Of a stretch of 64,000 nt of DNA, positions 14,691-55,525 are shown one piece after another. The DNA is taken from NCBI GenBank assembly GCA_949710005.1, contig OX453275.1, positions 23,741,691 to 23,805,690 on the forward strand, given 5' to 3'. The notes under the pieces were generated by a model that searched no databases, was not told the DNA's origin, and worked only from the letters and a program-made list of their open reading frames with translations. Source of the stretch: Ricordea florida (lineage: Eukaryota; Cnidaria; Anthozoa; Corallimorpharia; Ricordeidae). Both the position numbers and the translations under genes were made by a program. Within the stretch, counting starts at the first letter, position 1. Every line of letters begins with the position of its first letter.

Positions 14691-14734
14691 AACACTAAAC
14701 ACAAACAGAACAAGCTTTGAGAGAATACGCTACG

Positions 14735-31345: not shown

Positions 31346-31647
31346 TTTTACTAAACTAATATTTACTTGAACATATTTTTTAGAATTGTGTAGTTCCATA
31401 AATATCCATACCTCCACCACAGAAGGGTTTTTTAACTCGGAGCAGCCCCATTTAGCTTGTAACCACAGAAACAGCCAACTTTTAATTTTATTGTTTCTGA
31501 TCTGTGTTGTTTATACTGAATATCATAAGATTCCATTTACTTGATATGCTGACATATGATACCAAAGGAGGTGGTTGCCATGGAAACAGAACCCTTAATC
31601 CCTCAACCCTTGATTTCGGATAGGCTAGAAAATGCCAGGTTGTTTGT
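31346..31647. other. Flank between small gene and Helitron copy A
   Basis: No additional gene was seen; presumably 3' UTR and spacer. Confidence 0.3.
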
Positions 31648-32674
31648 TCCTCGCGAAGCGAGGCCGAAGGCCGAGCGTAGCGAGGTTACTAATCGTGTCG
31701 GTTCCGGTCAGACCACGTGGCTCGCAAGCCCGAGTAAATCGAGCCGAGAGTTTTTATATATGTATATATATATATTTATATATATGTTTATATATATCTA
31801 TATTTTAAAGGTGTCCGTTCGCAGGCCAGGTTACCTGGCAATAGTAACGCACTTGAGAACGCTGAATTTCCGCCATTATTCGGTGATGCCTTTTTGAAAG
31901 TAATGTAAATTTTGTGGAAACCGATTTCACTCGTCCTGGAAGTACATCCCAGCAAGGTGATCTCCAAGATATTCAAGAAATATTAGCACGAGATCGTCGC
32001 CGAGTAAGTTCGAATACCGTGAAAATCAACACGAGGAAAGCACGACTCAAAGCAGGGATAGAGAAACGACAGCAGGGAGAATAACAACAGAAATCGCAGC
32101 CAAGACAACAACTGCTCGCTCCAGAAAAAGGCAAACGAGACAGCAGGGAAAAGGACCAGGAATTCAATCAAGTTAGTTTTGAATTTGAATGTGTTATTGA
32201 TAGAAATACAGGACATGAGTGAACGATTACATAACGAAATATATTGGTGTACTACATTTAGCAAAACGACTTAGAAGGGACACCGAGTAAGAACGACTTC
32301 AACGATTGGAGATGTCTCTGGAAAATAATTCTATTAGTCTAAAACCGGAATCGGAAGACGACCAACAGATTACAAGAGAATGTAAATAGGTATTTTTCAT
32401 AATAAAACGATAGCGTTTCCAGTTTGAAGTAATTTCCAACACAGAGAGTTGCAGTTGTTATAGCAATCATTTATAACGATGTGATCTGATATCATTGCAA
32501 CAGTGAAAATATTGTAAATTTTCTTGATCTAGCAGTTATGTTAAACATTTTCAACAGAATGTATACCCTGTGTCACTATAAAGTACTGGTTCTGCAATAT
32601 TATCAGTGATCAATGTGATCATTTTAAAATAAAGCAAATGTGATTACTGAATTCTGAGTAGTATTTCTCTTTGC

Positions 32675-32707
<33 letters not shown>

Positions 32708-34623
32708 TCTCTGATTGAAAGGTTTCAATAATATTATGTAGAGACAAGTTTCATAGCCTTTTCACAATGGGTCAGTTTTACCTTAGAGTGCAATGACCCC
32801 CCCCCCCCTGATAATATTGCTATCTAGAACCCCTGCCCTTTTTTCACAAATGAAATGTTAATTCAAGCCTTAATTTGCAAAGTTAGACATAACATATTAA
32901 CTTTGTTACTTTCTGCCGTTTACTTTATTTTTATGTCAAATATCAATATTTCATAACAACCACAACATGCAATTAACCTTTTACATTGGAAAAACTTTAT
33001 AAAGAAGAAAATAAATTTTGTAATGCCAAAATGTTTATGATCTTTCTCATATATTCATTGCAAGTGTGCTGTATGTAGTAACAAGTGTTTCAAGTTTCCT
33101 AAATGCCCTATGCTTTCAATAATGATTTTCCACACAAACTTTCTAGACAAATGACTGCACTAGATTCTAAGCCTTTAAGAAGAAATGGTATTGTTTGGAG
33201 CTGTTTTGATTACTACCACCTCTGATAGAAAGCCTATTAAGAAGATTTTTGTATTGCTTTTAGTAGTAGAGTAACAATAACTTTACCAAGATTAAGACAT
33301 GAATCCCACCCCATAAAAATATATTATGTTTAACATAAAAAATATAACAATAATAATATCAATACCAGTAATAATAATAGTAATGATAATAATAATGATA
33401 ATAATATAATGATAGTTCTTCTCGTTACTATATGTCATTGGTTACAGTTCAATACCTCTGGCTGCCATGACTTTTTCGATGAAATACCGTCCTTATATTA
33501 AATCTTTCTTCTGCAGTTTTTATAATAGAAATTTTCATATATTCAAAATAATGTACTATTCTATGGTTGGGTATGGATATTTTGCCTGTTTCTGTAACAG
33601 CACAATTAAACTTTCATGTGGTATATACTTTTGACTGATTGATGTTGATTTCACATTATTTTTTTACAGGAGTACGTAGTGCAGCAATCTTTTTGAACAT
33701 ATTAAGATTTCAATAACTCTTTCTTACATGTATTGTTTTTATGATATGACCTAAAAATAGCACAACCACATACTATACAGTGGGCACTCACTATTACCAA
33801 ACCTTTATTCAAAGCTTTTGTAGAATCCAATTGTTTTACCCCCAATTTGTTGATGTGGCATCTCTTTTGAGGGAAGAGGAATTTTTCTATCTACCACTGG
33901 GGGTACCATTGCAACTGGAAAGAGTACACACATTAAAACATGCACTATTCATAATGCTCTCAATTGTGGTTACCCGGGAATGAAATAATGACTGCAGTAG
34001 ACAATAAAATATCTAATCAGAAGATTCTTCTTACAATGAATCTCATGCAATTATAACCAAAAAAACATAAACAAAAAATAATTGGAGCGTTCAGCTCATC
34101 CTCTGTGTAAGAACATATTGTGTTCAAAAGTGATGTACAACAAAGAAGACAAAGCAGTAGAGACTAAGAAAATAAAACTAAAGAAAAAAAACACAGGTTT
34201 TTACACCGTGGTAAACACAAGCATTCATATCAACTCTTCAAGATTTCACCTGCAAAAGATTTACAATCATTTTCAATTTGTGTTAAGTGAATATTATTGT
34301 GATACTTCATCGACTCTGTATTCCCTGTCAAGATAATAAATAATTTTACTTCTATTCCCTCTGGTGCAATCTCAGTGGCAGTGAAAGAGCTAAATGAAGG
34401 TCAATTTTTAAGCACTGTGTTGAGCGGTATACTGATCTTGTAATTTGCACCAGGTGTCACTAATTGTGTACCAAACACAGCATAAGAAATAAAATAATGG
34501 GGATTACGCTAATATAAAAAATAAAATATATAATATAAAAAAAAATAAAGAATAAAATATGAAAGCATTGTGACTTCTTCAAAAACTAGCTTCGCGAGGT
34601 TTTTGCGGGAGTCGTATTTCTAG
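31648..34623 (+). mobile_element. Non-autonomous Helitron/Helentron-like copy A
   Basis: 2976 bp from TCCTCGCGAAGC to TATTTCTAG, with T on each side. The 5' module is a run of GC palindromes (ctcgcgaagcgag, gccgaaggc). The 3' end has an inverted gcttcgcgagg 30 bases from the terminus, a weak GC hairpin, and CTAG. The interior holds (TA)n, a C-homopolymer and AT trinucleotide tracts, and short frames that are shared by copies but not recognised. A basic RDRRRVSSNTVKINTRKAR segment near 31995 may be a relic of a Helitron protein N-terminus. Confidence 0.75.
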
Positions 34624-34812
34624 TTTTTATTGAATACTTATTGTCTTTTGATCAAAATTTGGCCTATTTCTTAGTATTCTCTTTATTAATTCCTCGCGAA
34701 GCGAGGCCGAAGGCCGAGCGTAGCGAGGTTACTAATCGTGTCGCTTCCGGTTAGACCACGTGGCTCGCAAGCCCGAGTAAATCGAGCCGAGAGTTTTTAT
34801 ATATGTATATAT

Positions 34813-35116
34813 TTAACAATTATTCGCCGAAGGCGAAGTGATTCTCGGTGAATATTCACCGAGACGAAGTCGAGGTGAATATTCACCGAGAATCACTGAG
34901 CCTAAGGCGAATAATTGTTTTAGTATAAATACACAGGTGATTATTTCAAAAAAGAAGAGAAAAGCATTTTACAACGAGAAAAAGTTCTATTTCATCAAAA
35001 GCGCGCGAACGACTGGCAGCCATTTTGTTCGTCGAGGTGATTATCGGCCAATAATCCGAGATAGCGAACCAATCACAGCGCGCGATTTTGTATAATCACC
35101 TGAGTATTTATACTAA
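34813..35116. repeat. Composite palindromic MITE inside copy H
   Basis: A palindrome at 34815-34919 (aacaattattcgcc ... ggcgaataattgtt) with inner gaatattcacc words is followed by ttagtataaat at 34920 and its mirror atttatactaa ending at 35116. It contains aaccaatcacagcgcgcg near 35070. Copy B starts directly at its right edge. Confidence 0.75.
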
Positions 35117-38092
35117 CTAGAAATACGACTCCCGCAAAAACCTCGCGAAGCTAGTTTTTGAAGAAGTCACAATGCTTTCATATTTTATTCTTTATTTTTT
35201 TTTATATTATATATTTTATTTTTTATATTAGCTTAATCCCCATTATTTTATTTCTTATGCTGTGTTTGGTACACAATTAGTGACACCTGGTGCAAATTAC
35301 ATGATCAGTATACCGCTCAACACAGTGCTTAAAAATTGACCTTCATTTAGCTCTTTCACTGCCACTGAGATTGCACCAGAGGGAATAGAAGTAAAATTAT
35401 TTATTATCTTGACAGGGAATACAGAGTCGGTGAAGTATCACAATAATATTCACTTAACACAAATTGAAAATGATTGTAAATCTTTTGCAGGTGAAATCTT
35501 GAAGAGTTGATATGAATGCTTGTGTTTACCACGGTGTAAAAACCTGTGTTTTTTTTCTTTAGTTTTATTTTCTTAGTCTCTACTGCTTTGTCTTCTTTGT
35601 TGTACATCACTTTTGAACACAATATGTTCTTACACAGAGGATGAGCTGAACGCTCCAATTATTTTTTGTTTATGTTTTTTTGGTTATAATTGCATGAGAT
35701 TCATTGTAAGAAGAATCTTCTGATTAGATATTTTATTGTCTACTGCAGTCATTATTTCATTCCCGGGTAACCACAGTTGAGAGCATTACGAATAGTGCAT
35801 GTTTTAATGTGTGTACTCTTTCCAGTTGCAATGGTACCCCCAGTGGTAGATAGAAAAATTCCTCTTCCCTCAAAAGAGATGCCATATCAACAAATTGGGG
35901 GTAAAACAATTGGATTCTACAAAAGCTTTGAATAAAGGTTTGGTAATAGTGAGTGCCCACTGTATAGTATGTGGTTGTGCTATTTTTAGGTCATATCATA
36001 AAAACAATACATGTAAGAAAGAGTTATTGAAATCTTAATATGTTCAAAAAGATTGCTGCACTACGTACTCCTGTAAAAAAATAATGTGAAATCAACATCA
36101 ATCAGTCAAAAGTATATACCACATGAAAGTTTAATTGTGCTGTTACAGAAACAGGCAAAATATCCATACCCAACCATAGAATAGTACATTATTTTGAATA
36201 TATGAAAATTTCTATTATAAAAACTGCAGAAGAAAGATTTAATATAAGGACGGTATTTCATCGAAAAAGTCATGGCAGCCAGAGGTATTGAACTGTAACC
36301 AATGACATATAGTAACGAGAAGAACTATCATTATATTATTATCATTATTATTATCATTACTATTATTATTACTGGTATTGATATTATTATTGTTATATTT
36401 TTTATGTTAAACATAATATATTTTTATGGGGTGGGATTCATGTCTTAATCTTGGTAAAGTTATTGTTACTCTACTACTAAAAGCAATACAAAAATCTTCT
36501 TAATAGGCTTTCCATCAGAGGTGGTAGTAATCAAAACAGCTCCAAACAATACCATTTCTTCTAAAAGGCTTAGAATCTAGTGCAGTCATTTGTCTAGAAA
36601 GTTTGTGTGGAAAATCATTATTGAAAGCATAGGGCATTTAGGAAACTTGAAACACTTGTTACTACATACAGCACACTTGCAATGAATATATGAGAAAGAT
36701 CATAAACATTTTGGCATTACAAAATTTATTTTCTTCTTTATAAAGTTTTTCCAATGTAAAAGGTTAATTGCATGTTGTGGTTGTTATGAAATATTGATAT
36801 TTGACATAAAAATAAAGTAAACGGCAGAAAGTAACAAAGTTAATATGTTATGTCTAACTTTGCAAATTAAGGCTTGAATTAACATTTCATTTGTGAAAAA
36901 AGGGCAGGGGTTCTAGATAGCAATATTATCAGGGGGGGGGGGGGGGGTCATTGCACTCTAAGGTAAAACTGACCCATTGTGAAAAGGCTATGAAACTTGT
37001 CTCTACACAATATTATTGAAACCTTTCAATCAGAGAATACATACATATATATATATATATATATAGCAAAGAGAAATACTACTCAGAATTCAGTAATCAC
37101 ATTTGCTTTATTTTAAAATGATCACATTGATCACTGATAATATTGCAGAACCAGTACTTTATAGTGACACAGGGTATACATTCTGTTGAAAATGTTTAAC
37201 ATAACTGCTAGATCAAGAAAATTTACAATACTTTCACTGTTGCAATGATATCAGATCACATCGTTATAAATGATTGCTATAACAACTGCAACTCTCTGTG
37301 TTGGAAATTACTTCAAACTGGAAACGCTATCGTTTTATTATGAAAAATACCTATTTACATTCTCTTGTAATCTGTTGGTCGTCTTCCGATTCCGGTTTTA
37401 GACTAATAGAATTATTTTCCAGAGACATCTCCAATCGTTGAAGTCGTTCTTACTCGGTGTCCCTTCTAAGTCGTTTTGCTAAATGTAGTACACCAATATA
37501 TTTCGTTATGTAATCGTTCACTCATGTCCTGTATTTCTATCAATAACACATTCAAATTCAAAACTAACTTGATTGAATTCCTGGTCCTTTTCCCTGCTGT
37601 TTCGTTTGCCTTTTTCTGGAGCGAGCAGTTGTTGTCTTGGCTGCGATTTCTGTTGTTATTCTCCCTGCTGTCGTTTCTCTATCCCTGCTTTGAGTCGTGC
37701 TTTCCTCGTGTTGATTTTCACGGTATTCGAACTTACTCGGCGACGATCTCGTGCTAATATTTCTTGAATATCTTGTAGATCACCTTGCTGGGATGTACTT
37801 CCAGGACGAGTGAAATCGGTTTCCACAAAATTTACATTACTTTCAAAAAGGCATCACCGAATAATGGCGGAAATTCAGCGTTCTCAAGTGCGTTACTATT
37901 GCCAGGTAACCTGGCCTGCGAACGGACACCTTTAAAATATAGATATATATAAACATATATATAAATATATATATATACATATATAAAAACTCTCGGCTCG
38001 ATTTACTCGGGCTTGCGAGCCACGTGCTCTGACCGGAACCGACACGATTAGTAACCTCGCTACGCTCGGCCTTCGGCCTCGCTTCGCGAGGA
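35117..38092 (-). mobile_element. Non-autonomous Helitron/Helentron-like copy B
   Basis: The reverse-oriented, near-identical counterpart of copy A with the same length (2976 bp). CTAG end at 35117 with T beyond (minus sense), TC end at 38092 with T beyond. Inserted into copy H at the edge of the MITE. Confidence 0.8.
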
Positions 38093-38652
38093 AATATATA
38101 TATATCTATATTTTAAAGGTGTCCGTTCGCAGGCCAGGTTACCTGGCAATAGTAGCGTATTTGAGAACTCCTGAATTTCCGCCAATTCGAATGCGGTGAT
38201 GCCTTTTTGAAAGAAATGTAAATTTTGTGGAAACGGATTTCACTCGTCCTGGAAGTGTATCCCAGCAAGATGATCTCCGAGATATTCAAGAAAGAGTAGC
38301 CCGAGATCGTCGCCGAGTAAGTTCGAACACCGTGAAAATCAACACAAGGAAAGCACGACTCAAAGCAGGGAAAGAGTACGACAGCAGGGCGAATAACAAC
38401 AGACATCCGTCATCGCAGCAAAGACAAAAACTGCTCGCTCTAGAAAAAGGCAAACGAAACAGCAGGGAAAAGGACCAGGAATTCAACCAAGTTAGTTTTG
38501 AATTTGAATGTGTTATTGATAGAAATACAGAACAGGAGTGAACGATTACATAACGAAATATATTAGCGTACTAAATTTAGCAAAACGGCTTAGAAGGGAA
38601 ACCGAGTAGAAACAACTACAACGATTGGAGATGTCTCTGGAAAATAATTATA

Positions 38653-40567
38653 CTAGAAATACGACTCCCGCAAAAACCTCGCGAAGCTAGTTTTTGAAGA
38701 AGTCACAATGCTTTCATATTTTATTCTTTATTTTTTTTTATATTATATATTTTATTTTTTATATTAGCGTAATCCCCATTATTTTATTTCTTATGCTGTG
38801 TTTGGTACACAATTAGTGACACCTGGTGCAAATTACATGATCAGTATACCGCTCAACACAGTGCTTAAAAATTGACCTTCATTTAGCTCTTTCACTGCCA
38901 CTGAGATTGCACCAGAGGGAATAGAAGTAAAATTATTTATTATCTTGACAGGGAATACAGAGTCGATGAAGTATCACAATAATATTCACTTAACACAAAT
39001 TGAAAATGATTGTAAATCTTTTGCAGGTGAAATCTTGAAGAGTTGATATGAATGCTTGTGTTTACCACGGTGTAAAAACCTGTGTTTTTTTTCTTTAGTT
39101 TTATTTTCTTAGTCTCTACTGCTTTGTCTTCTTTGTTGTACATCACTTTTGAACACAATATGTTCTTACACAGAGGATGAGCTGAACGCTCCAATTATTT
39201 TTTGTTTATGTTTTTTTGGTTATAATTGCATGAGATTCATTGTAAGAAGAATCTTCTGATTAGATATTTTATTGTCTACTGCAGTCATTATTTCATTCCC
39301 GGGTAACCACAATTGAGAGCATTACGAATAGTGCATGTTTTAATGTGTGTACTCTTTCCAGTTGCAATGGTACCCCCAGTGGTAGATAGAAAAATTCCTC
39401 TTCCCTCAAAAGAGATGCCATATCAACAAATTGGGGGTAAAACAATTGGATTCTACAAAAGCTTTGAATAAAGGTTTGGTAATAGTGAGTGCCCACTGTA
39501 TAGTATGTGGTTGTGCTATTTTTAGGTCATATCATAAAAACAATACATGTAAGAAAGAGTTATTGAAATCTTAATATGTTCAAAAAGATTGCTGCACTAC
39601 GTACTCCTGTAAAAAAATAATGTGAAATCAACATCAATCAGTCAAAAGTATATACCACATGAAAGTTTAATTGTGCTGTTACAGAAACAGGCAAAATATC
39701 CATACCCAACCATAGAATAGTACATTATTTTGAATATATGAAAATTTCTATTATAAAAACTGCAGAAGAAAGATTTAATATAAGGACGGTATTTCATCGA
39801 AAAAGTCATGGCAGCCAGAGGTATTGAACTGTAACCAATGACATATAGTAACGAGAAGAACTATCATTATATTATTATCATTATTATTATCATTACTATT
39901 ATTATTACTGGTATTGATATTATTATTGTTATATTTTTTATGTTAAACATAATATATTTTTATGGGGTGGGATTCATGTCTTAATCTTGGTAAAGTTATT
40001 GTTACTCTACTACTAAAAGCAATACAAAAATCTTCTTAATAGGCTTTCCATCAGAGGTGGTAGTAATCAAAACAGCTCCAAACAATACCATTTCTTCTAA
40101 AAGGCTTAGAATCTAGTGCAGTCATTTGTCTAGAAAGTTTGTGTGGAAAATCATTATTGAAAGCATAGGGCATTTAGGAAACTTGAAACACTTGTTACTA
40201 CATACAGCACACTTGCAATGAATATATGAGAAAGATCATAAACATTTTGGCATTACAAAATTTATTTTCTTCTTTATTAAGTTTTTCCAATGTAAAAGGT
40301 TAATTGCATGTTGTGGTTGTTATGAAATATTGATATTTGACATAAAAATAAAGTAAACGGCAGAAAGTAACAAAGTTAATATGTTATGTCTAACTTTGCA
40401 AATTAAGGCTTGAATTAACATTTCATTTGTGAAAAAAGGGCAGGGGTTCTAGATAGCAATATTATCAGGGGGGGGGGGTCATTGCACTCTAAGGTAAAAC
40501 TGACCCATTGTGAAAAGGCTATGAAACTTGTCTCTACACAATATTATTGAAACCTTTCAATCAGAGA

Positions 40568-40611
<44 letters not shown>

Positions 40612-41637
40612 CAAAGAGAAATACTACTCAGAATTCAGTAATCACATTTGCTTTATTTTAAAATGATCACATTGATCACTGATAATATTGCAGAACCAGT
40701 ACTTTATAGTGACACAGGGTATACATTCTGTTGAAAATGTTTAACATAACTGCTAGATCAAGAAAATTTACAATATTTTCACTGTTGCAATGATATCAGA
40801 TCACATCGTTATAAATGATTGCTATAACAACTGCAACTCTCTGTGTTGGAAATTACTTCAAACTGGAAACGCTATCGTTTTATTATGAAAAATACCTATT
40901 TACATTCTCTTGTAATCTGTTGGTCGTCTTCCGATTCCGGTTTTAGACTAATAGAATTATTTTCCAGAGACATCTCCAATCGTTGAAGTCGTTCTTACTC
41001 GGTGTCCCTTCTAAGTCGTTTTGCTAAATGTAGTACACCAATATATTTCGTTATGTAATCGTTCACTCATGTCCTGTATTTCTATCAATAACACATTCAA
41101 ATTCAAAACTAACTTGATTGAATTCCTGGTCCTTTTCCCTGCAGTTTCGTTTGCCTTTTTCTGGAGCGAGCAGTTGTTGTCTTGGCTGCGATTTCTGTTG
41201 TTATTCTCCCTGCTGTCGTTTCTCTATCCCTGCTTTGAGTCGTGCTTTCCTCGTGTTGATTTTCACGGTATTCGAACTTACTCGGCGACGATCTCGTGCT
41301 AATATTTCTTGAATATCTTGGAGATCACCTTGCTGGGATGTACTTCCAGGACGAGTGAAATCGGTTTCCACAAAATTTACATTACTTTCAAAAAGGCATC
41401 ACCGAATAATGGCGGAAATTCAGCGTTCTCAAGTGCGTTACTATTGCCAGGTAACCTGGCCTGCGAACGGACACCTTTAAAATATAGATATATATAAACA
41501 TATATATAAATATATATATATACATATATAAAAACTCTCGGCTCGATTTACTCGGGCTTGCGAGCCACGTGGTCTGACCGGAACCGACACGATTAGTAAC
41601 CTCGCTACGCTCGGCCTTCGGCCTCGCTTCGCGAGGA
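38653..41637 (-). mobile_element. Non-autonomous Helitron/Helentron-like copy C
   Basis: 2985 bp, same termini and order as B, inserted in copy H between T and T. Differs from B mainly in (TA)n and G-run lengths and scattered substitutions. Confidence 0.8.
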
Positions 41638-42075
41638 ATTAGTCTAAAAATAGGCACGCGAAGCATGCATGTGGCTACTGTTTTGGTTGGGGTTGTTTTG
41701 TTTTGCTATTACTTGATTTGAAGCAAAGTTGGATTTGATACAAGTCCTTCGCCTCTGATAGAAAATCAAGTGCAGATTCGCAAAATCAGTTCACGTGAAA
41801 AGATATCAGTACGTAATTATTCAATAACGTATAACAAGAGCAGTCAAGCAGCATTGTATTACTGTGGTCCCAGCAACGTCCAGAATGAGAATTGCAATTA
41901 GCGGTTTAAAATGATTTCTTTATATTAGTATTGAGTCTCGAGGTAAGCTTTGAATCAGAGTTGCGTTAACGTTTTTCCAAGGTTTCATTTAACACTTTAA
42001 CACTTTATGGCAAATATACAAATAAACATATAATGAAATAGATGAAACAACGAGAATCTTTCTAACGTTGAGTTT

Positions 42076-42983
42076 TTATAACTCTACAACAATGAACAAG
42101 CAACAATGACCATTAAGCTGCAACAGCATAATAATGGTAATTATTAAGCTTGTAACCATTCCTGAAGACTGGTTTCCATATAGATGAAATCGTTTCAAAT
42201 GCGCAATACTTGAGTTATCTTTAATAACTAATTTTGTGACTGAGGAATCGAGTAGCCCATTAACAAAAACAGTTAGTTTGCATTTACTACACTTGACTGT
42301 GGAAGTGTCATCAGTGACGTGTATCTTTGAGTTGCACATTATGCAACTTTTGTAATGTGAAACATTAGCTCCTAGGACAGACCCAATAATGACCTTACCA
42401 TAGGACTCGCATTGGGGTTCTGCGATGCATGCCACGTCATCAACTACATTAATTACTGTGTAGTTTGTAGTTGTAAATATTTCTCATCACTGAAACTATG
42501 AACACTTACACCTTCAATGACATAACATTTATCTGCTTCGAGACAAACTTTACTTTCCCATGTTACTAGCTTGATAGATTTAGTTTTGTCAGCAATTACG
42601 CAATCTACCTTTGTTAAAGGTTTCCCCCTAACATTTACAATCTCAGGCTGACCGATTTCAATTACTTTTGCTTTCACTGTTATTGACTGGAAGTCTGAAA
42701 TGTTATCAATGTCACCAATGTTAAAGTGCATTAGTGAAAATGCGTTGTCATAGTCATAATCTACTGTGTGGGGTGTTACTCCCGATCTTTACTTGATGGT
42801 ATATTGTTCTTGTGAAGTTCGTCGCCTGCCAATGGTTTGCTGCACACTGTCAAAACTGACAGGTTGCTTTTTAGTTTGCATTTCCTTTATTTTTGCACGC
42901 TTTTCAGGAGAGTAGCAGACGGCTCTGACAGATTTCCTTGGGGATGTTTGCAGCTGGAATTCGAAGTATGACGAAGTTCCCAC
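42076..42983 (-). pseudogene. RPA-like single-strand DNA-binding protein, broken
   Basis: Three neighbouring minus-strand frames: 42983-42789 (SSYFEFQLQTSPRKSVRAV, the opening typical of cnidarian transposon RPA-like proteins), 42731-42453 (an OB-fold: ITVKAKVIEIG, KVDCVIADKTKSIKLVTWE, KYLQLQTT), and 42435-42076 with a zinc ribbon (CIMCNSKI...KCSKCKL). Stops or shifts separate them. RPA-like genes accompany many Helitrons and would protect single-stranded intermediates. Confidence 0.7.
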
Positions 42984-43041
42984 GTTTGATGATCTTATAG
43001 CATCAATTTGGGAACAAAGCCACAGAGGTTGTCATGTTGCC

Positions 43042-43789
43042 CGAAAAATGAGGATATTCTGCTAAAATAAAATATAAGATTAGATCAGTACCATTAACGT
43101 GTGAAAACATAGATTGATCGATTGATTGATAGTTTGACTGATTGAATGATTAGTTCATTGATTGATTGTTGGGTTGACTGATTGATCCTTTGTTTTTTCA
43201 AGAATAAAAGTTAATGGTATTGCAGTATTACTTACTCGAGAGAGTTGCTTGACTTTGTGCTTGAGGAGCCTAAAATATGTACAGATTTGTTATTTTATAT
43301 TAACATATTACAAATAACGCAGTGTGAGAAAATTAATTTGTAAGCGTTTTTAATACAACAAGCCTGTATTTTTTGTCTATTTTTCATTTTTCCAAATAAT
43401 AAATACATACATAATTATATTCATAAAATACATTCATACATAAAACGGCTTGCTGAGATTGATAGTGACTTTTGAATTATGATGTTTGCTTTGTAAATAG
43501 ATATCTAGGTTCAATTGGAAGTCAGGGGTTTGGGTTTGTTCGCTAAGGGACCAATAGCAGCAGTTCATGACCTGTGAAATACAAAGCAAAGACACATAAT
43601 AATCTTTAATTTGAGGCACAAAGTATATCATGATTCATTATCTCCAGAAGCTAATGTCATAGGTACTTCTCCAAGCTGGCTGTTTGAATCCCCTGCCTGA
43701 GATAGATAAGTGAATGAGAGAGACATCAAAATATGTTGATGACACCATCTGATATTCAATGGGAAAAACAGCAGCAAATGGGGATGCTG
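43042..43789. other. Deleted interior of the Helentron-like element
   Basis: Here the Rep endonuclease and PIF1-type helicase would be expected, but no HUH, Walker or other helicase motif is visible. It contains a gattgattgatt tract near 43115-43190. Confidence 0.45.
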
Positions 43790-44173
43790 TTAAATATTTC
43801 CCTTGCATTTTCTAAGTGCTATTTGAGACTGACAGAGAAGGATTTTCATTTGTAATTTTTTTGCTTTATAAAAGATATTTTCAACACACATAGCAGCCCT
43901 TCTGTCAGATCCTCTAAGCTCTGATTTACAGATATCACTGTAATGTTCTTGCTTACTTTCTGTTCGTTGTTGACCAAGAAAAATGCCAGGATAAGCTAAT
44001 TCTTCAGAGTACCTGTCTCTAAATATGCTCAACGGTCTATTGCCTTCAGCTGGAGCAACATTCATTATAACTTGCCGCTCATTATTTTCTAAAAAGTCAG
44101 ATGATGTTAACATTGTATCAGTAACACCAGCAGGTATAATCAGCTTCATCTTCACTCCATTCATGTTCATCAT
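43790..44173 (-). pseudogene. Helitron protein segment before Rep
   Basis: Has NVAPAEGNRPLSIFRDR, YPGIFLGQQR and SELRGSDRRAA, the block that in Helitron polyproteins follows DUF6570 and precedes the Rep region. It overlaps the preceding frame (44651-44118), implying a frameshift. Ends at a stop (43790). Confidence 0.65.
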
Positions 44174-44651
44174 CTAAGTCTTGTGGCTCATTATTTTGAC
44201 TGTTTTCAGTGGTTTCTCTTGATCCCTCTTCAATCAAATTGTCAATTGTTTTGCTATTTTTAATTATTTCCTCATTGTATTGCTGAGCCCAATCTGAGTT
44301 AAATATAATTCCTTCATCCTTCTGAAGAGTACTATTATTCATGAACCAAACTGCTGCTTTTGCTACCTTATGAGGTCTTATATTTAATGATAAAGCACTA
44401 CTTTTATATTGCAACTTCCTTTTTAAATTGACTTTGATTGTACAAGTCTCATTTGGTAACCTTGGTAGCATACTGACTGTATTAGTTACATCAGCAGGAA
44501 CATTAACAGCATTACCATGAATTTTAAGTTGCTTTCCTCTAGGAGCTTGCATTAACTTTTGAAATGCAATTCTTGGTGCCAGTAACCTACATTCTAATTC
44601 ATTGAGATAAAAAAATGCAGGTTTTTCTGGAAATGTCATTCCATTCACCAC
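44118..44651 (-). pseudogene. DUF6570-like Helitron N-region
   Basis: Contains LNELECRLLAPRIAFQKL, APRGKQLKIHGNAVNVPAD and NIRPHKVAKAAVWFMNNS, matching the conserved domain found upstream of Rep in animal Helitrons. An acidic tail (DDEHEWSEDEAD) follows. Confidence 0.7.
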
Positions 44652-44831
44652 TTATAATGGTGCCATTTTATTTTTAACCAAATATTTATAACATGTCAAA
44701 CAAACCCATTCAACATCATCAACACTTTTGTTGTTAGAAATATGTTTATCAACATTAAACACAACTGATGACAAGTGCAAATATAGAGTGGGCCTTGAGA
44801 GACTGTTTCATGAAACTTTGAAATAGTTAAC

Positions 44832-45475
44832 TCAATATTGCTCTTTGTTTTTGCTCTGTAAGATTTCATATATTATATTCTGCTGTACTTTTTCATTGAC
44901 TGTTTTTGAAGATCTCTGGTTTCTCATACATGCATTATGTTTGGCCTTTTGATCTGCAGATTCAGTTTCAGATCTAAAAGTTCTCATACGAGCATTATGT
45001 ATTGCTTTTTGCTTAGGCAATTCAATTTCAGCTCTATAATTCCTCATGTATACATTAGCTTTTTCTTTATGTTCAGCTAATTCAATTTCAGCTCTATAAT
45101 TCCTCATGTATGCATTAGCTTTTTCTTTTTGTTCAGGTGATTCAATTTCAGCTCTATAGTTCCTCTTGTATGCATTAGCTTTTCCTTTCGTTCTGAAGAC
45201 TTAATTTTGGCCCTATAACTTCTCATGTAAGCATTTCATTTTGCCCTTTTGTCTGGTGAATCACTATTGGTAACTTTGTCTTGTGTAGTTGCCTTCTTAG
45301 CTGCTTTATATTTCATATCTATTCTTTTCTTTTCTTTCACATCAGCACGTGCTTTATTAGGTCTAGGCTTTCTTACCTTGTTTACATTTTCAGACTTTGC
45401 AACATCATTAAAGCCCATTGTACATTCATTGCCATTTTGTGACATAAAGTCATATTTTCTTTTGGACGCATTCAA
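44832..45475 (-). pseudogene. Basic N-terminal region with 20-residue repeats
   Basis: 45475-45236 is lysine-rich (KKRIDMKYKAAKKA). 45236-44832 holds about six 60-bp tandem units, each encoding a variant of MRNYRAEIELAEHKEKANVY. Arg/Lys-rich repeats of this type precede DUF6570 in Helitron proteins. The last units are out of frame or diverged. Confidence 0.6.
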
Positions 45476-45484
45476 AGTACATGG

Positions 45485-45961
45485 TTAAGAATCAATAAAT
45501 ACATCTATGTCTGTTTTGTTTGAAATTCTTTGAACAGTGGAAGCATAGTGCATTTCACCTATGTGCCCTATATGTATAGTCCTACAATTCTGTGAAACAT
45601 TTGCAGCTTCAACAAAGCTTCTTTCACTAAAATTTTCATTTGACTCCACAATATTAATTTTCAAATTCATAGCATCTGCCACAGCTTGAATTATGATGTG
45701 ATCAGCCCACATCCCTTGTCTGGACATTGAAGTTAAATATTGAGACCACGTCATATTATCTGCAACACTTTCTATAAATTGTTCAGGGTGGTCTAGCAAA
45801 TATTGAACTCCAGCAGTTCTTACTCCTGAATGACGTCTTGCTTCATTGTATAACTGATGTGCTACAGCTCTAAAGAAGCAATCCCCATTTCCTCCTACAT
45901 CTAGTGAAATGAGTCCAAGAGTATGTATTCTGTTATAAAAAAACTTAATCATTGTTCTCAT
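45485..45961 (-). pseudogene. OTU-family cysteine protease domain
   Basis: Contains GLISLDVGGNGDCFFRAVAH (Asp and catalytic Cys) and near the end HIGHIGEMHYAST (catalytic His), so the triad residues appear kept. OTU domains remove ubiquitin-like proteins; they occur in Helentron polyproteins. The frame is shifted relative to the preceding 2A-bearing frame (overlap 45945-45961) near a T homopolymer. Confidence 0.8.
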
Positions 45962-46160
45962 CGCATATTACTCTTAACGAGGTGGGAATACTGCTTCCTC
46001 TCGGACCTGGATTTAACTCAATATCTCCTGACAGCAAAGCTTTTAATTTTGATACATTACACAATGATTCAGACTTAAAATAATTGCTATAAAAACTGTC
46101 TTCTCTCTTCAAAAACCTGATGTCCCATTGTTTATACTGACTAGCAATGCTATACAACAA
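45945..46160 (-). pseudogene. N-terminal segment with 2A ribosome-skipping peptide
   Basis: Ends its helical lead-in with LKALLSGDIELNPGP, a full match to the D(V/I)ExNPGP consensus (46002-46025). In 2A peptides the ribosome skips the Gly-Pro bond and releases the upstream protein. It stands about 30 residues ahead of the OTU domain. Confidence 0.75.
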
Positions 46161-46186
46161 TCATGAAGCAGGAACTGCACTTTTAA

Positions 46187-46780
46187 TCAAACTTGTTTCT
46201 TTTTCTCAGTTTTCTGTGTTTTAGCGAGTTCAAAACTTTTTTTCAGTGATATTCTGGAAGGTTCTCTACCTCTTACTTTTCGATTCCTCAGTTGTCTGGA
46301 CTGCTGCAAAATCCTACTGCAATGATCAGTAATATTAAATACACTTTTATAATTATTGTCAGCTTCTAATGTAATATTCATTTTATCATCAAAAGCCTTA
46401 TCATCACATTCTAAACCAGGCACAGAAATCAAACATGTTTCAGTGTGACAGCCTTTTTTTTAAACTTGTTTATCGCCACAATCCCTTTGGCTGCAATTTG
46501 CGTCTGACAAGAAACTTGTATTCGTGTTTTCAAAGTCAGCATTTATTCCCCGAAATGAATTGTTGGTTTCCTGTAGGAAATAATTCGTGTCACAAAGGTC
46601 AATGTTGGTTCCCCGAAGGGAATTGTTGGTTTCCCGAAGGAAATTGAATGACCCAGAACACTTTTGAGCAGCAACACACATCACGCGCTCATCATGGTGG
46701 TCTTTCAAACATCTTAGCGGTTCGGCAAAATTCCATTTTCTTTTGGAAACTCTAAAGCTTACACCTTCGAAAAAACTTAA
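46187..46780 (-). pseudogene. N-terminal region of the Helentron-like protein
   Basis: Two frames: 46780-46460, starting near KRKWNFAEPLRCLKDHHDE and then repeating (R/Q)ETNNSxRGTN-like units; and 46432-46187, basic toward its end. The product upstream of the 2A site is of unknown function. Confidence 0.45.
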
Positions 46781-47129
46781 AAATGTCTTTAGGAAAAAAT
46801 GTTAGCCACAGTGTTTGAATGCTGTGCCTGATCTGTGGTATAACATAACGATAAAACATAGTAAAGTATTTATCTTACCTTCACTCGACGAGCACATGGA
46901 AAAAGGGTTGACGCAGCTCAATCTTCTTGCAGTCGATATAAATTCGACAAAATGGCGAAAACATATCGGTAATTATCGTTTGCACAATCCGTCGCCGTAT
47001 CTTCGCCGTATCACTTGCCGTAGATACACGAAACAAACCCGAAATATCTTCCTGACTCATTCGAGAGGAAACCGATTTTCTTTCGACCAAAATCGCTGCC
47101 GAAAAACCGAAGATAAACCGAAGATTCGA

Positions 47130-47165
47130 GTATTACTTACTTACTTACTTACTTACGCACGCACG
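47130..47165. repeat. Microsatellite (TTAC)n then (GCAC)n
   Basis: ttacttacttactt followed by cgcacgcacgcac near the 5' end of the Helentron-like element. Confidence 0.8.
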
Positions 47166-48915
47166 CACTTACACGACCGATGACATAGAGGCTTACTGCC
47201 TGGTTACCAGGCAGTAGCCACAAAAACGGAATAGGAAGACGACCAACAGATTACAAGAGAATGTAAGTAGGTATTTTTCATAATAAAGCGATAGCGTTTC
47301 CATTTTGAAGAAATTCCCAATACAGAGACTGCAGTTGTGATAGCAACTATTTATGATTATGTGATCTGATGTCATTGCAACAGTGAAAATATATTGTAGA
47401 TTTGTCTGTTGTAGCAGTTATGTTCAGCATTTTCAACAGAAAAGATACTTAACAATTAGTGACTGGTTCTGCAATATTATCAGTGATCATTGCAATTCTT
47501 TGAAAATAAAGCAGATGGTATTTATTACTGACTTTTAAGTAGTATTTCTCTTTGCTGTATATATCTTTTCTACATATATGTATTAAGTAATTAAAAGGTT
47601 TTGTTGGGACTGACAAGTTCCATAGCCTTTTGAAAATGGATTTTTACATATGAGTTCCAGGTATCCCTGGGAATTACTCTCTTAGCCCCCACACTTTTCC
47701 CACAAATGAAAAATTCATTTAAGCCCTACTTTGCAAAATTAGGCATAACATCGTAACCTTTGTTCTTAATACTGTTTTTAAAATTCAGATGTAAAATACA
47801 AATATTTAACAACAACTGCAATATACAGTTGACCTTTTACATTGGGAAGACTAAAGTTTGTAATGCCAAATTTTTCACGATCTTTCTTATATATTCATTG
47901 CAAGGGTGCTGTATGTAATAAAAAGTATTTAAAGTTTCGTAAAAGCCCTGTGCTTTCAATCATGATTTTCCACACTAACTGTATGGACAAATGACTGTAT
48001 GGACTAATTCATTTTTATGATGTCAAGTACAAATATTTAATAACAACCACAATATACAGTTGACATTTTACATTAAAAACACTCTACAAAGGAGAAACTA
48101 AAGTTTGTAATGCCAAAATTTTTATGATCTTTCTTATGTAATCATTCCAAGGTTGCTGTATGTAATAACAAGTCTTTGAAGTTTCCTAAATGCCCTATGC
48201 TTTCAATCATGATTTTCCACACCAACTGTATGGACAAATGACTGCCCTAGCATGATTGCTACAGGTCAGAAAATGGTCAGGGAAAAAATTCTTCAAGCAA
48301 AGGAAAAGTAAGGGAATTTCATTTCGAGTAAGGGAAAGTTTAAGTCTTTGAGAGAAGTCAGGGAAAAGTGAAATTTAAGAGTTCTTATTTATTTATTGCC
48401 AATTCAGCTATGATTTGGTGTAATTAAGAATGTGACATGAAATGTGTTGGAGTGGTAGAATTAATTGACAAGCTGATTTTGGATTGCCTAGAAAATCAAT
48501 CCTTTTTCCATGACTTTGTTACCTTAAGAAACTATCAATCCATATGCACTTATGTGACTTTCTGAAAGCATATTAAAAAAAGGGGTGTAGAGGTTGGCTG
48601 TGAGGTGACGTTGGAGGCCATTACCAGGACTAATTTGTGAGTTTTCTTATTTAGTTTGTAAGGGAAATTTTTACATTTATAAGGGAAAAGTAAAGGAATT
48701 TCAACATCTTGTGGCTGTGGCAACCATGACTAGATTCTAAGCCGAAAAGAAGAAATGGTATTGTTCAGAGATGAGTAATTTTTACCACAACTGATAGAAA
48801 CCCTATTCCAAAGAAAACTGTATTGCTTGTAGTAGTAGAGGAACAATGCCTTTACCCAGATTAGGACATACACCCCCACCCCATAACAGTAAAAATAGCA
48901 ATAATAATAATAATA

Positions 48916-50831
48916 CTAGAAATACGACTCCCGCAAAAACCTCGCGAAGCTAGTTTTTGAAGAAGTCACAATGCTTTCATATTTTATTCTTTATTTTTTT
49001 TTATATTATATATTTTATTTTTTATATTAGCGTAATCCCCATTATTTTATTTCTTATGCTGTGTTTGGTACACAATTAGTGACACCTGGTGCAAATTACA
49101 AGATCAGTATACCGCTCAACACAGTGCTTAAAAATTGACCTTCATTTAGCTCTTTCACTGCCACTGAGATTGCACCAGAGGGAATAGAAGTAAAATTATT
49201 TATTATCTTGACAGGGAATACAGAGTCGATGAAGTATCACAATAATATTCACTTAACACAAATTGAAAATGATTGTAAATCTTTTGCAGGTGAAATCTTG
49301 AAGAGTTGATATGAATGCTTGTGTTTACCACGGTGTAAAAACCTGTGTTTTTTTTCTTTAGTTTTATTTTCTTAGTCTCTACTGCTTTGTCTTCTTTGTT
49401 GTACATCACTTTTGAACACAATATGTTCTTACACAGAGGATGAGCTGAATGCTCCAATTATTTTTTGTTTATGTTTTTTTGGTTATAATTGCATGAGATT
49501 CATTGTAAGAAGAATCTTCTGATTAGATATTTTATTGTCTACTGCAGTCATTATTTCATTCCCGGGTAACCACAATTGAGAGCATTATGAATAGTGCATG
49601 TTTTAATGTGTGTACTCTTTCCAGTTGCAATGGTACCCCCAGTGGTAGATAGAAAAATTCCTCTTCCCTCAAAAGAGATGCCACATCAACAAATTGGGGG
49701 TAAAACAATTGGATTCTACAAAAGCTTTGAATAAAGGTTTGGTAATAGTGAGTGCCCACTGTATAGTATGTGGTTGTGCTATTTTTAGGTCATATCATAA
49801 AAACAATACATGTAAGAAAGAGTTATTGAAATCTTAATATGTTCAAAAAGATTGCTGCACTACGTACTCCTGTAAAAAAATAATGTGAAATCAACATCAA
49901 TCAGTCAAAAGTATATACCACATGAAAGTTTAATTGTGCTGTTACAGAAACAGGCAAAATATCCATACCCAACCATAGAATAGTACATTATTTTGAATAT
50001 ATGAAAATTTCTATTATAAAAACTGCAGAAGAAAGATTTAATATAAGGACGGTATTTCATCGAAAAAGTCATGGCAGCCAGAGGTATTGAACTGTAACCA
50101 ATGACATATAGTAACGAGAAGAACTATCATTATATTATTATCATTATTATTATCATTACTATTATTATTACTGGTATTGATATTATTATTGTTATATTTT
50201 TTATGTTAAACATAATATATTTTTATGGGGTGGGATTCATGTCTTAATCTTGGTAAAGTTATTGTTACTCTACTACTAAAAGCAATACAAAAATCTTCTT
50301 AATAGGCTTTCTATCAGAGGTGGTAGTAATCAAAACAGCTCCAAACAATACCATTTCTTCTTAAAGGCTTAGAATCTAGTGCAGTCATTTGTCTAGAAAG
50401 TTTGTGTGGAAAATCATTATTGAAAGCATAGGGCATTTAGGAAACTTGAAACACTTGTTACTACATACAGCACACTTGCAATGAATATATGAGAAAGATC
50501 ATAAACATTTTGGCATTACAAAATTTATTTTCTTCTTTATAAAGTTTTTCCAATGTAAAAGGTTAATTGCATGTTGTGGTTGTTATGAAATATTGATATT
50601 TGACATAAAAATAAAGTAAACGGCAGAAAGTAACAAAGTTAATATGTTATGTCTAACTTTGCAAATTAAGGCTTGAATTAACATTTCATTTGTGAAAAAA
50701 GGGCAGGGGTTCTAGATAGCAATATTATCAGGGGGGGGGGGGTCATTGCACTCTAAGGTAAAACTGACCCATTGTGAAAAGGCTATGAAACTTGTCTCTA
50801 CACAATATTATTGAAACCTTTCAATCAGAGA

Positions 50832-50875
<44 letters not shown>

Positions 50876-52045
50876 CAAAGAGAAATACTACTCAGAATTC
50901 AGTAATCACATTTGCTTTATTTTAAAATGATCACATTGATCACTGATAATATTGCAGAACCAGTACTTTATAGTGACACAGGGTATACATTCTGTTGAAA
51001 ATGTTTAACATAACTGCTAGATCAAGAAAATTTACAATATTTTCACTGTTGCAATGATATCAGATCACATCGTTATAAATGATTGCTATAACAACTGCAA
51101 CTCTCTGTGTTGGAAATTACTTCAAACTGGAAACGCTATCGTTTTATTATGAAAAATACCTATTTACATTCTCTTGTAATCTGTTGGTCGTCTTCCGATT
51201 CCGGTTTTAGACTAATAGAATTATTTTCCAGAGACATCTCCAATCGTTGAAGTCGTTCTTACTCGGTGTCCCTTCTAAGTCGTTTTGCTAAATGTAGTAC
51301 ACCAATATATTTCGTTATGTAATCGTTCACTCATGTCCTGTATTTCTATCAATAACACATTCAAATTCAAAACTAACTTGATTGAATTCCTGGTCCTTTT
51401 CCCTGCTGTTTCGTTTGCCTTTTTCTGGAGCGAGCAGTTGTTGTCTTGGCTGCGATTTCTGTTGTTATTCTCCCTGCTGTCGTTTCTCTATCCCTGCTTT
51501 GAGTCGTGCTTTCCTCGTGTTGATTTTCACGGTATTCGAACTTACTCGGCGACGATCTCGGGCTAATATTTCTTGAATATCTTGGAGATCACCTTGCTGG
51601 GATGTACTTCCAGGACGAGTGAAATCGGTTTCCACAAAATTTACATTACTTTCAAAAAGGCATCACCGAATAATGGCGGAAATTCAGCGTTCTCAAGTGC
51701 GTTACTATTGCCAGGTAACCTGGCCTGCGAACGGACACCTTTAAAATATAGATATATATAAACATATATATAAATATATATATATACATATATAAAAACT
51801 CTCGGCTCGATTTACTCGGGCTTGCGAGCCACGTGGTCTGACCGGAACCGACACGATTAGTAACCTCGCTACGCTCGGCCTTCGGCCTCGCTTCGCGAGG
51901 AATAAACATATATATAAATATATATATATACATATATAAAAACTCTCGGCTCGATTTACTCGGGCTTGCGAGCCACGTGGTCTGACCGGAACCGACACGA
52001 TTAGTAACCTCGCTACGCTCGGCCTTCGGCCTCGCTTCGCGAGGA
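48916..52045 (-). mobile_element. Non-autonomous Helitron/Helentron-like copy D
   Basis: The body 48916-51901 matches A-C. The 5' terminal 144 bp is tandemly repeated (51902-52045). T flanks on both sides. Inserted in an aataataat tract of copy H. Confidence 0.8.
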
Positions 52046-52259
52046 ATCAATACCAGCAATAATAATAATGATAATAATAATGGTAATAATACAATAATAA
52101 TCATGATAATAATTACAAGAAATGAGAAAGTAAAAAAAGTGATAATGATATAACAATAAGTAAATACATAAAAATTGGGGTTCTATCCCTCATGGGAAAA
52201 ACCATCATGAGTTCTTTAAAAACTAGCTTCGCGAGGTTTTGCGGGAGTCGTATTTCTAG

Positions 52260-52501
52260 TTAATAATTTGACGTCATCAGGGTTGTCATGGCAACTTGAT
52301 TGATGCATAGGATGATAGCTCTGTCAAAGTTGTACATGATGGCCAAGTTTCATGGCCATAGCTTGCTTCATTCAAAAGTTATGGCTGAAAATGTAATTCA
52401 TAGTGTTAATTATGGTGCCACTGGAAATTCATCAGATCCATACTTGCCCTTGTATTTAAATGTCCATAAAAATTGCTAATTAAATAATATTTAAAAATTT
52501 A
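52260..52501. other. Spacer between tail-to-tail copies H and G
   Basis: 242 bp without coding or a recognised repeat. The two 3' ends face each other. Confidence 0.4.
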
Positions 52502-55402
52502 CTAGAAATACGACTCCCGCAAAACCTCGCGAAGCTAGTTTGTAAAGGACTCCTAATGGTTTTTCCTATGAGGTATAAAACCCCAATTTACGTATTTACT
52601 TATTATTATATTATTTTTACTTTTTGTACTTTCTCATTTTTTGCAATTATCATGATTATTATTATCATATTATTATCATTATCATTTTTAATATTATTAC
52701 TGGTATTGATATTATTATTAGTATTGTTATTTTTTATGTTTAACATAATATACTGTTATTGGGTTGGGGTGTATGTCCTAATCTGGGAAAAGGTATTGTT
52801 CCTCTACAACTACATGCAATTCTGTTTTTCTTGTGAATAGGGTTTGTATCATAGGAAGTAAAAATTACTCAACTCTGAACAATACCATTTCTTCTTTTAA
52901 GCTTAGAATCTAGTCATGGTTGCCACAGCCATAAGATCTTTAAATTTTCTGACTTTTCCCTGACAAATGTAAAATTTCCCTTACCAACTAAATTAGAAAA
53001 GTCACAAATTAGTCCTGGTAGTGACCTCCAACCTCATCTCACAACCAACCTCTCCACCCATTTATTTAATATGCTTTCAGAAAGTCACATACAGTGTACG
53101 TGGATTGATAGTTTCTTACGATAACCAATTCATGGAAAAAGGATTGATTTTCTTGGAAACCCAAAATCAGCTTGTCATTTAATTCTACCAATCCAACACA
53201 TTTCATGTCACATTCTTGACCACACCAAACCAAAGCTGAATTGGCAAGAAATAAATTAGTAGTATTAAATTTCACTTTTCCCTGACTTGATTTGAAATTC
53301 CCTTACTTTTCACTGACCTTGAAGAATTTTTTCCCTTACCATTTTCTGACCTGTGGCAATCATGCCAGTGCAGTCATTTGTCCATACAGTTAGTGTGGAA
53401 AATCATGATTGAAAGCATAGGGCATTTGGGAAACTTCAAAGACTTGTTATTACATACAGCACCCTTGCAATGAATACATAAAACAGCAAACAGAAAAACA
53501 GCTAAAACTTTTAGCATTTCAAACTTTAGTTTCTCCCTTGTAGAGTTTTTCCAATGTAAAAGGTCAACTGCATATTGTGGTTGTTATTAAATATTTGTAT
53601 TTGACATCATTAAAATGAATTAAACAGCATTAAGGAAAAAGGTTAAGATGTTGTCTTATTTTGCAAATTAGGGCTTAAATTAACTTTTCATTTGTGGGAA
53701 AAGGGTGGGTGCTAAGAGAGTAATTCCCAGGAATGCATGGAATTCAAAGGTAAAAACCCATTTTGAAATGGCTATGGAACTTGTCTGTCCCAACGAAACT
53801 TTTTAATTACGTAATACATATATGTAGCAAAGAAATAGAGCAAAGAGAAATACTACTCAGAAGTCCGTAACGACATCTGCTTTATTTACAAATAATTGCA
53901 TTGAACAGTGATAATATTGCAGAACCGGTAACTTATTGTTTGGTATCTATTCTGTTGAAAATGCTGAACATAACTGCTACATCAAACAAATCTACAATAT
54001 ATTTTCACTGTTGCAATGATATCAGATCACATAATTATAAATAATTGCTATCACAACTGCAATCTCTGTATTGGGAATTTCTTTCAAATGGAAGGCAAAC
54101 GTTTCACTACGAAAAATACCTACTTGCATTCTCATTGCAGTATTAATACTACGTGACTGTCATCTTTCATTTCTTTGCGGTTGGTTTCTGTTTCCCCTTT
54201 CCTGGCACTTTTTTCACGACGATATGGTAATCTGTTTTGTCGTTCGTCTTCTGATTCTGGCTCCTTCTCCGTGTACCGGCACAGATGACGTAAAACAAAG
54301 CCAGACAATAACAAACATGTTACTGAATAATTTTACACACAATGATGAAACAATGCGCTACGTCATCTGTGCCGGTACACGGAGTAGGAGCCCTGATTCT
54401 GTCTGCATGCTGGAAGTCGTTCCTACTCGGTTTCCGTTCTAAGTCATTTTGCTAAATTTTGTTCGCCAATTTCGTTATGTAATCGCTTGCTCATGTCCTG
54501 TATACCTAAAACGAGTCTTTGTTTCTATCCATAACAAATTCAATATCCAATCTAACTTGATGGTAACTTGATGGTATTCCTGGTCCTTTTCCTTGCTGAT
54601 CCCTTTGCTTTTTTTGAGCGAGCAGTTCTTGTCTTAGCTGCGATGTCTCTTGTTATCGTCCCTACCGTCGTTTCTCAATCTCTGCTTTGAGTCGCCGCTT
54701 CCCGTGTGCATTTTTTGCGGCATTCAAACTTACTCGACGACGATCTCTCACCATTCTTTCTTGTATATGTCGGAGATCTTCTTGCTGGGATGTACTTCCA
54801 AGACGAGTGAAATCGGTTTCCACAAAATTCGCATTATTTTCAAAACATCATTCAAGGAATTCGTAATGTCGGAATTTCACATGGAGTAATGTTGCCAGGT
54901 AACCTGGCCTGCGAACGGACACCTTTAAAATATAGATATATATAAACATATATTAAACAATTAGATTATGAGCTCGAGATTTCTATCGCGTGATAGTTGA
55001 CGAGGGCGCAGCCCGAGTCAACTATCACGCATAGAAATCGAGAGCGAATAATCTAATTGTTTTAGTATAAATCTACTAGTCATTCAAAACTTTGTCTTTT
55101 CTGGAACAGCCTCGACCAGTAAACTGTCTAAATCTTCTTTATGGACACTTCGAAAACGTGAACAAGCGGCCGCCATTACGCTACTCGCTATCTATCACAG
55201 AATAGATAGTGAGTAGCGTAGCCAATCAGAGCGCGGCATTTGTGATAGAACGCTAGTAGATTTATACTAAATAAATATATATATATACATATATAAAAAC
55301 TCCCGGCTCGATTTACTCGGGCTTGCGAGCCACGTGGTCTGACCGGAACCGACACGATTAGTAACCTCGCTACGCTCGGCCTTCGGCCTCGCTTCGCGAG
55401 GA
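52502..55402 (-). mobile_element. Older Helitron/Helentron-like copy G
   Basis: Reverse-oriented relative of copy H: same shortened 3' region (ggggtttta..cctcatagg type block), diverged interior with AT tracts, and a 5' module ending cgcgaggaata at 55402. Interrupted by a MITE at 54955-55270. T is found beyond both ends. Confidence 0.65.
54955..55270. repeat. Composite palindromic MITE inside copy G
   Basis: Palindrome 54956-55061 (aacaattagatt ... aatctaattgtt, inner tgatag/ctatca words), then ttagtataaatctactag with mirror ctagtagatttatactaa ending at 55270. Contains gtagccaatcagagcgcgg near 55210. Inserted in the AT tract of the 5' module. Confidence 0.75.
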
Positions 55403-55525
55403 ATAACTCTGCTTCTAAAAGGCAGATTTCCATCATTCAAAAAGCAAAATGTTCAGAAAAATTGGGAGAATTTTTTAGCAGTGATTTCAAGGGTGATGAA
55501 AATTAAGGAAAAATGGGCTAAAACT
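55403..55525. other. Spacer before the satellite
   Basis: Short AT-rich stretch, nothing recognised. Confidence 0.3.

Follow-up and report, generated by a model that had tools for sequence, protein, structure and literature searches.

A probable dead, internally deleted Helitron2/Helentron copy nested among Helitron2-type repeats in the genome of Ricordea florida

A stretch of Ricordea florida DNA of 64,000 nucleotides (assembly GCA_949710005.1, contig OX453275.1, positions 23,741,691 to 23,805,690 of the forward strand; hereafter the window) raises the question of what kind of element lies at its positions 41651-47221, where relics of transposon accessory genes stand between unequal ends and a Rep-helicase is missing, and whether the family of this element moves the repeats that surround it. 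The original prediction, made from the letters of the window, was a Helentron-like element that has coding parts and asymmetric ends but lacks a Rep and helicase. This description is well supported. We consider it about 90% probable that the element is a dead, internally deleted copy of a rolling-circle transposon of the Helitron2/Helentron kind.

Boundaries and ends of the element

Self-comparison of the window revealed four copies of a 3-kb repeat, U1 (about 31647-34624, plus strand), U2 (about 35116-38093, minus strand), U3 (about 38652-41639, minus strand) and U4 (about 48915-51903, minus strand), with pairwise identities of 98.7 to 99.6%. An older U copy, W, is present in pieces (34690-34815, 38097-38652, 41638-41650, 47222-48886 and 52046-52260). 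Both U3, a non-autonomous Helitron2-type neighbour (38653-41637 when bounded by W), and the element lie inside W, separated by 13 bp of it (41638-41650, plus strand) that form one side of the empty site. W continues to the left of U3 (38097-38652, plus strand, placed by self-comparison and the empty-site alignment) and to the right of the element (47222-48886, plus strand), where the portion 48251-48728 has no match to U. When the W flanks were joined across U3 and the element, their alignment with the four U copies spanned 212 columns at 89.2% identity and had two gaps: 5 nt within an A-run at the point of insertion, and a single base at the U3 junction. Since the four U copies are near-identical, they count as one witness of the empty site. 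The interval 41651-47221 is a single insertion bounded by this paralogous empty site, and its minus-strand reading starts at 47221 and ends at 41651. The predicted coordinates are confirmed by the empty site, apart from A/T bases at the edges that can be assigned neither to the element nor to its host. The insertion site is T-rich, and the 5 extra A/T bases at the junction are, in one copy, indistinguishable from a 5-nt duplication. In published Helentron copies, the Ts form strings of 2 to 5 and differ in number (PMC4067079, excerpted text).

The 5′ asymmetric terminal inverted repeat (ATIR), GTGGCTACTG, occupies 47212-47221 on the minus strand (10 bp, 0 nt from the 5′ terminus), and the 3′ ATIR, CAGTAGCCAC, occupies 41671-41680 on the same strand, 20 nt from the 3′ end. 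In the window, GTGGCTACTG occurs exactly at two sites, 41671-41680 on the plus strand and 47212-47221 on the minus strand, and at a third site with one mismatch. This number of sites is at chance level (3 with at most one mismatch against 2.00 expected; at least 3 in 29 of 100 shuffles). The position is unlikely: with local base composition and with the ends taken as fixed by the empty site, 4 of 200000 simulations placed a mirror image of a random 5′-terminal 10-mer in the final 40 nt. On the minus strand the 3′ end consists of the ATIR, 2 nt, the hairpin GCATGC-TTC-GCGTGC, CTA and TTTTT, the last 20 nt being ATGCATGCTTCGCGTGCCTA. The 20 bp at 41651-41670 are missing from the empty-site copies. 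Therefore, the insertion includes these 20 bp and its ends are asymmetric.

The predicted subterminal mirroring of the 5′ repeat at the 3′ end thus holds, by the exact match 20 nt from the end and by the empty site. The predicted 3′ terminal hairpin with a 6-bp stem closing the element is also present (41654-41668, minus strand, one G-T pair included), but it is not stronger than in shuffled sequence (z-score −0.28). A 5′ hairpin at 47190-47219 (minus strand), which the earlier description of the ends did not contain, uses 8 of the 10 ATIR bases and is highly significant (−13.3 kcal/mol, z-score −6.85, none of 200 shuffles as stable).

Gene relics, the missing Rep-helicase and family placement

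A search with the joined pieces of the element listed 120 of 226 matching proteins, and these 120 were used as relatives. The best match listed, P0001, showed 55% identity over 99% of the query. The few named relatives among the listed matches come from Paramuricea clavata, Oculina patagonica and Nematostella vectensis, which would make a cnidarian host likely. P0001 has the layout 2A-OTU-repeats-DUF6570, followed by Helitron_like_N at residues 793-925. The minus strand of the element follows Helentron polyprotein order, with 2A, OTU, repeats, DUF6570, a pre-Rep segment, 764 bp in which no homology was detected, and an RPA-like gene. The 2A (StopGo-like) octapeptide DIELNPGP (46002-46025, within the open reading frame (ORF) 45945-46160) aligned with the 2A of P0001. 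It is followed by an OTU protease relic (45485-45967; Pfam PF02338, E 1.1e-14), about five tandem 20-aa repeats with a 60-bp period (44832-45200; repeat family D1), a DUF6570 relic (44118-44651; PF20209, E 1.3e-12) and a conserved segment (43796-44137) that matched residues 653-770 of P0001 at 84% by tblastn. Beyond a stretch without detected homology (43032-43795), a relic of an RPA70-like OB-fold protein lies at 42199-43010 and is 72% and 61% identical to the relative P0121.

The OTU, DUF6570 and 2A features had all been predicted, and each was found. The prediction of an RPA gene was upheld through a relative. The relic itself had no Pfam match above cut-off, a sequence search of PDB with one protein gave nothing useful, and a family profile gave a weak match. 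A structural model of P0121, however, matched RPA70/SSB and RPA70-type OB folds, and the RPA-like identity of the relic is settled by this modelled fold. All of these genes are decayed. Within the four alignment pieces of the polyprotein stretch there are 6 in-frame stops, and the frame changes 3 times between pieces; two of the stops fall where the alignment is poor and may reflect additional changes of frame. The RPA relic contains 1 stop and 1 frame change. An intact protein is not likely to be made from the coding pieces of the element.

The tblastn match to P0001 extends to its residue 770 and breaks off at 43796, immediately ahead of Rep. The matches of the seven other polyprotein homologs shown break off there as well, and homology is picked up again at 43010 in the RPA gene. 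A Pfam scan of the 32 stop-to-stop ORFs of at least 50 aa wholly inside the element detected no Rep, helicase, endonuclease or transposase; matches above cut-off were OTU, DUF6570 and the OTU-related Peptidase_C65, with a few other weak ones below it. In the expected place of the Rep-helicase (43032-43795), Pfam on three ORFs and tblastn uncovered no Rep-helicase relics, and tblastn of 143 homologs (E 1e-3) gave no match in the window outside the element. This covers helicase relics less thoroughly than Rep relics, since 38 of the 120 relatives carry the Rep motif but no more than 4 extend to the helicase Walker motif. The absence of a Rep and helicase, as originally claimed, agrees with the Pfam scan and with the homology stop. 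Therefore, this copy is not autonomous.

Several features place the element with Helitron2 and Helentrons. In Helitron2 (Bao and Jurka 2013, PMC3627910, excerpted text), a 5′ ATIR of 8-15 bp starts at most 2 bp from the 5′ terminus and takes part in a hairpin there; the 3′ ATIR stands about 20-30 bp short of the 3′ terminus and is followed by a second hairpin, and insertion is into T-rich sites without target duplication. The element has its 10-bp 5′ ATIR at 0 nt within the significant 5′ hairpin, its 3′ ATIR 20 nt before the end, and a T-rich site; a hairpin starts 2 nt after the 3′ ATIR but is statistically weak. It differs from Helitron2 in having no detected RepHel and in holding relics of 2A, OTU, DUF6570 and an RPA-like gene. 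Helentrons are known to carry OTU and RPA as accessory genes (PMC4067079), and both are represented here, OTU through Pfam and the OB folds through the P0121 model. The T-rich insertion is a further likeness to Helentrons and HINEs (Thomas and Pritham 2014, PMC4067079), in which deletion derivatives are common. The HUH Rep, the PIF1 helicase and the apurinic/apyrimidinic (AP) endonuclease fused to RepHel of autonomous Helentrons were not detected by Pfam in the 32 ORFs. In the relatives, Rep motif 2 reads FYRVEYQQRGSPH[IVS]H with F/Y-x-R and GSP in all 38 of the 120 where it was found. GSP in this motif is diagnostic of the Helentron Rep (PMC4067079). By this motif, the proteins of the relatives are assigned to the Helentron clade.

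Other points weigh against this placement. The Helentron AP endonuclease was not seen in the listed relatives, which end upstream of it. HINE families are defined by identical subterminal inverted repeats of at least 11 bp and, within a subfamily, by 80% identity of the last 60 bp. The element, with an ATIR of 10 bp at 20 nt from the 3′ end, falls outside the 12-15 bp and 38-60 bp of mite HINE families (PMC4067079). The 3′ hairpin is no better than chance, 71 of 200 shuffles folding as well, and the A-run at the junction leaves room for a 5-nt target duplication. A second copy with the same ends had 0 matches in a viral collection, which was not expected to hold it. Full-length relatives were likewise absent from viral contigs and from genome contigs of prokaryotes, a null that says little because these collections hold viruses and prokaryotes.

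We infer a rolling-circle mechanism and a loss of RepHel by deletion. An autonomous ancestor would have encoded an N-terminal protein, 2A, OTU, repeats, DUF6570 and Rep-helicase, plus an RPA gene, and its Rep would nick the ends and join them at a T-rich target. The Rep-helicase interval would later have been lost while both ends and the flanking genes were retained, either before the last move, in which case the copy would have moved in trans, or after it. An origin by gene capture, in which a non-autonomous Helitron2-family element took up 2A-OTU-DUF6570 and RPA pieces of a different Helentron, would be compatible with the failure to see the ends of the element together with a Rep here, and with the lack of detected homology in 43032-43795 between the gene relics. 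However, between the 2A region and the point just ahead of Rep, the pieces fit the layout of the relatives in order, orientation and position, and the coding direction agrees with the structural direction. A single internal deletion is also simpler, though an RPA gene downstream of RepHel was not seen here in an autonomous relative. We regard such a chimera as improbable. The exact 10-bp inverted repeat could instead belong to a cut-and-paste transposon with terminal inverted repeats at 41671 and 47221, and the 5 extra A at the junction would then fit an AAAAA target duplication. This reading is hardly tenable: the 20 bp outside the left repeat (41651-41670) are absent from the empty-site copies and hence part of the insertion, the 32 ORFs scanned contain no transposase, and the relatives carry a Helitron Rep domain. 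A transposon with symmetric terminal inverted repeats is ruled out by the same 20 bases. As a Helitron2/Helentron derivative, the element is an ordinary decayed copy of a known kind of transposon.

In the U copies the ATIR is 11 bp long (CCTCGCGAAGC) and lies 1 nt inside the 5′ end and about 24 nt inside the 3′ end. These repeats begin with TC and finish with CTAG, and a T flanks each side of the four copies read. These copies are of Helitron2 type but belong to a family other than that of the element. Because the four are about 99% identical, they were probably active recently. U1 to U3 contain no stop-to-stop ORF of at least 120 aa, and no machinery for the U copies was detected in the window by tblastn of the 143 homologs. 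It had been proposed that the family of the element may mobilise, or once have mobilised, some of the surrounding copies, even though its ends differ from theirs. The difference is real (GTGGCTACTG, 10 bp, against CCTCGCGAAGC, 11 bp), and the proposal is unsupported. Both families share Helitron2-type end geometry and T-rich target sites, but the ATIRs do not agree, no Rep was detected in the element, and the homologs have no tblastn match elsewhere in the window. It is very improbable that the family of the element supplies the machinery that moves the U copies.

A 2A motif before two kinds of deubiquitinase in the relatives

Pfam labelled an OTU domain in 20 of the 120 listed relatives, with a GDC box in 18 of the 20. 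The 2A octapeptide D[VI]E.NPGP was found upstream of the OTU in 16 of the 20, at 23-44 residues from the GDC box. The other four comprise two that begin inside the OTU, one that begins 41 residues before the box, and P0080, which has a long N-terminus and no motif. Herpes_teg_N, a viral-tegument-like deubiquitinase (VTD), was found in 16 of the 120 relatives and was preceded by a 2A-like motif in 13 (11 match the strict pattern, and two differ from it at one residue); the remaining three are two proteins with shortened N-termini and one with HPGP for NPGP. No NPGP occurred outside the OTU and VTD classes among the 120 relatives, nor in their reversed sequences (0/120). Clustered at 80% identity, the motif carriers fall into 23 groups. 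In the VTD-class relatives (P0046-P0117), the 2A follows a short hydrophobic N-terminus, an arrangement resembling the 2A-like signal sequences of sea urchin NLR proteins (PMC4981915, excerpted text). The 20-aa repeats of the element occupy the place of the STPR repeats in VTD-class relatives, of which 8 of 10 scanned had PF21107 (2 of these below its cut-off).

The two deubiquitinases are not sorted into two clades. For 19 of the 36 OTU/VTD relatives plus the element, a tree was built from the core that separates DUF6570 from Rep, the other 17 being dropped because the core or its end was not found; an earlier, smaller tree had used a narrow text pattern and 15 of the 36. On both trees, the OTU/VTD label needs at least 2 changes. 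A single clade of all VTD rows was rejected (approximately unbiased test, p-AU 5.5e-7), in a test run after the smaller tree had already shown the pattern. The second label change rests on a single OTU protein, P0011, which grouped with two VTD proteins at 100/100. With odds slightly better than even, we suggest that in Helentron polyproteins of the element's clade a 2A/StopGo site would free the deubiquitinase-Rep part from the N-terminal protein, the site being fixed while OTU and viral-tegument-like deubiquitinases are swapped. The putative 2A function is assigned here from the motif.

Deubiquitinases in Helitron proteins are known from VTD- and OTU-bearing Helitrons (Nat Commun 2022, PMC9741609), and the present relatives likewise have OTU or VTD (Herpes_teg_N). 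In its main text, that paper contains neither NPGP, StopGo or self-cleaving nor DUF6570. Ribosome skipping has been attributed to RNA viruses, non-long-terminal-repeat (non-LTR) retrotransposons and sea urchin NLR genes (PMC12846837, PMC4981915). The excerpted text of these two papers mentions non-LTR retrotransposons and does not contain the word Helitron. Among the literature matches listed, no publication on 2A in Helitrons was found.

Neighbouring mobile elements and implications

The repeats around the element are themselves composite. A 140-bp piece of the U 5′ end (51907-52046) abuts the full copy U4 at its 5′ end, and both lie within W. This piece has no 3′ end of its own, and one-ended or aborted rolling-circle copies might leave such fragments. 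W (34690-52260) is a mosaic with respect to U and to V, an old U copy at 52501-55404: on the left it shares 91% identity with U and 75% with V, whereas the right part starts out at 77% with U and 84% with V. In two old U copies, W and V, the same AT-rich spot holds an insert of about 300 bp (34816-35115 and 54958-55267). One end of each insert is a palindrome of about 105 bp, and each also has a TTAGTATAAAT-like edge.

Further mobile elements were noticed elsewhere in the window. At 25408-30838, a retroelement-like ORF of 1573 aa (25779-30500, minus strand), Gypsy-like by eye, lies between two 333-bp repeats; as these are 100% identical, the retroelement is probably young. An ORF of 1108 aa resembling a non-LTR retrotransposon (56482-59808) has, by eye, its own 2A-like NDVALNPGP near the N-terminus. 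The ORFs at 14699-16322 are, as we take them from their appearance, of THAP and DDE-transposase type, and a nearby ORF at 16742-17482 is presumably YqaJ-like.

The element provides an empty-site-verified example of Helentron decay, and it sits among stacked copies of a second Helitron2-type family. The conserved 2A before either deubiquitinase suggests that rolling-circle DNA transposons may split their polyprotein during translation. If so, this would be StopGo recoding in a DNA transposon, coupled to a swappable protease cassette.

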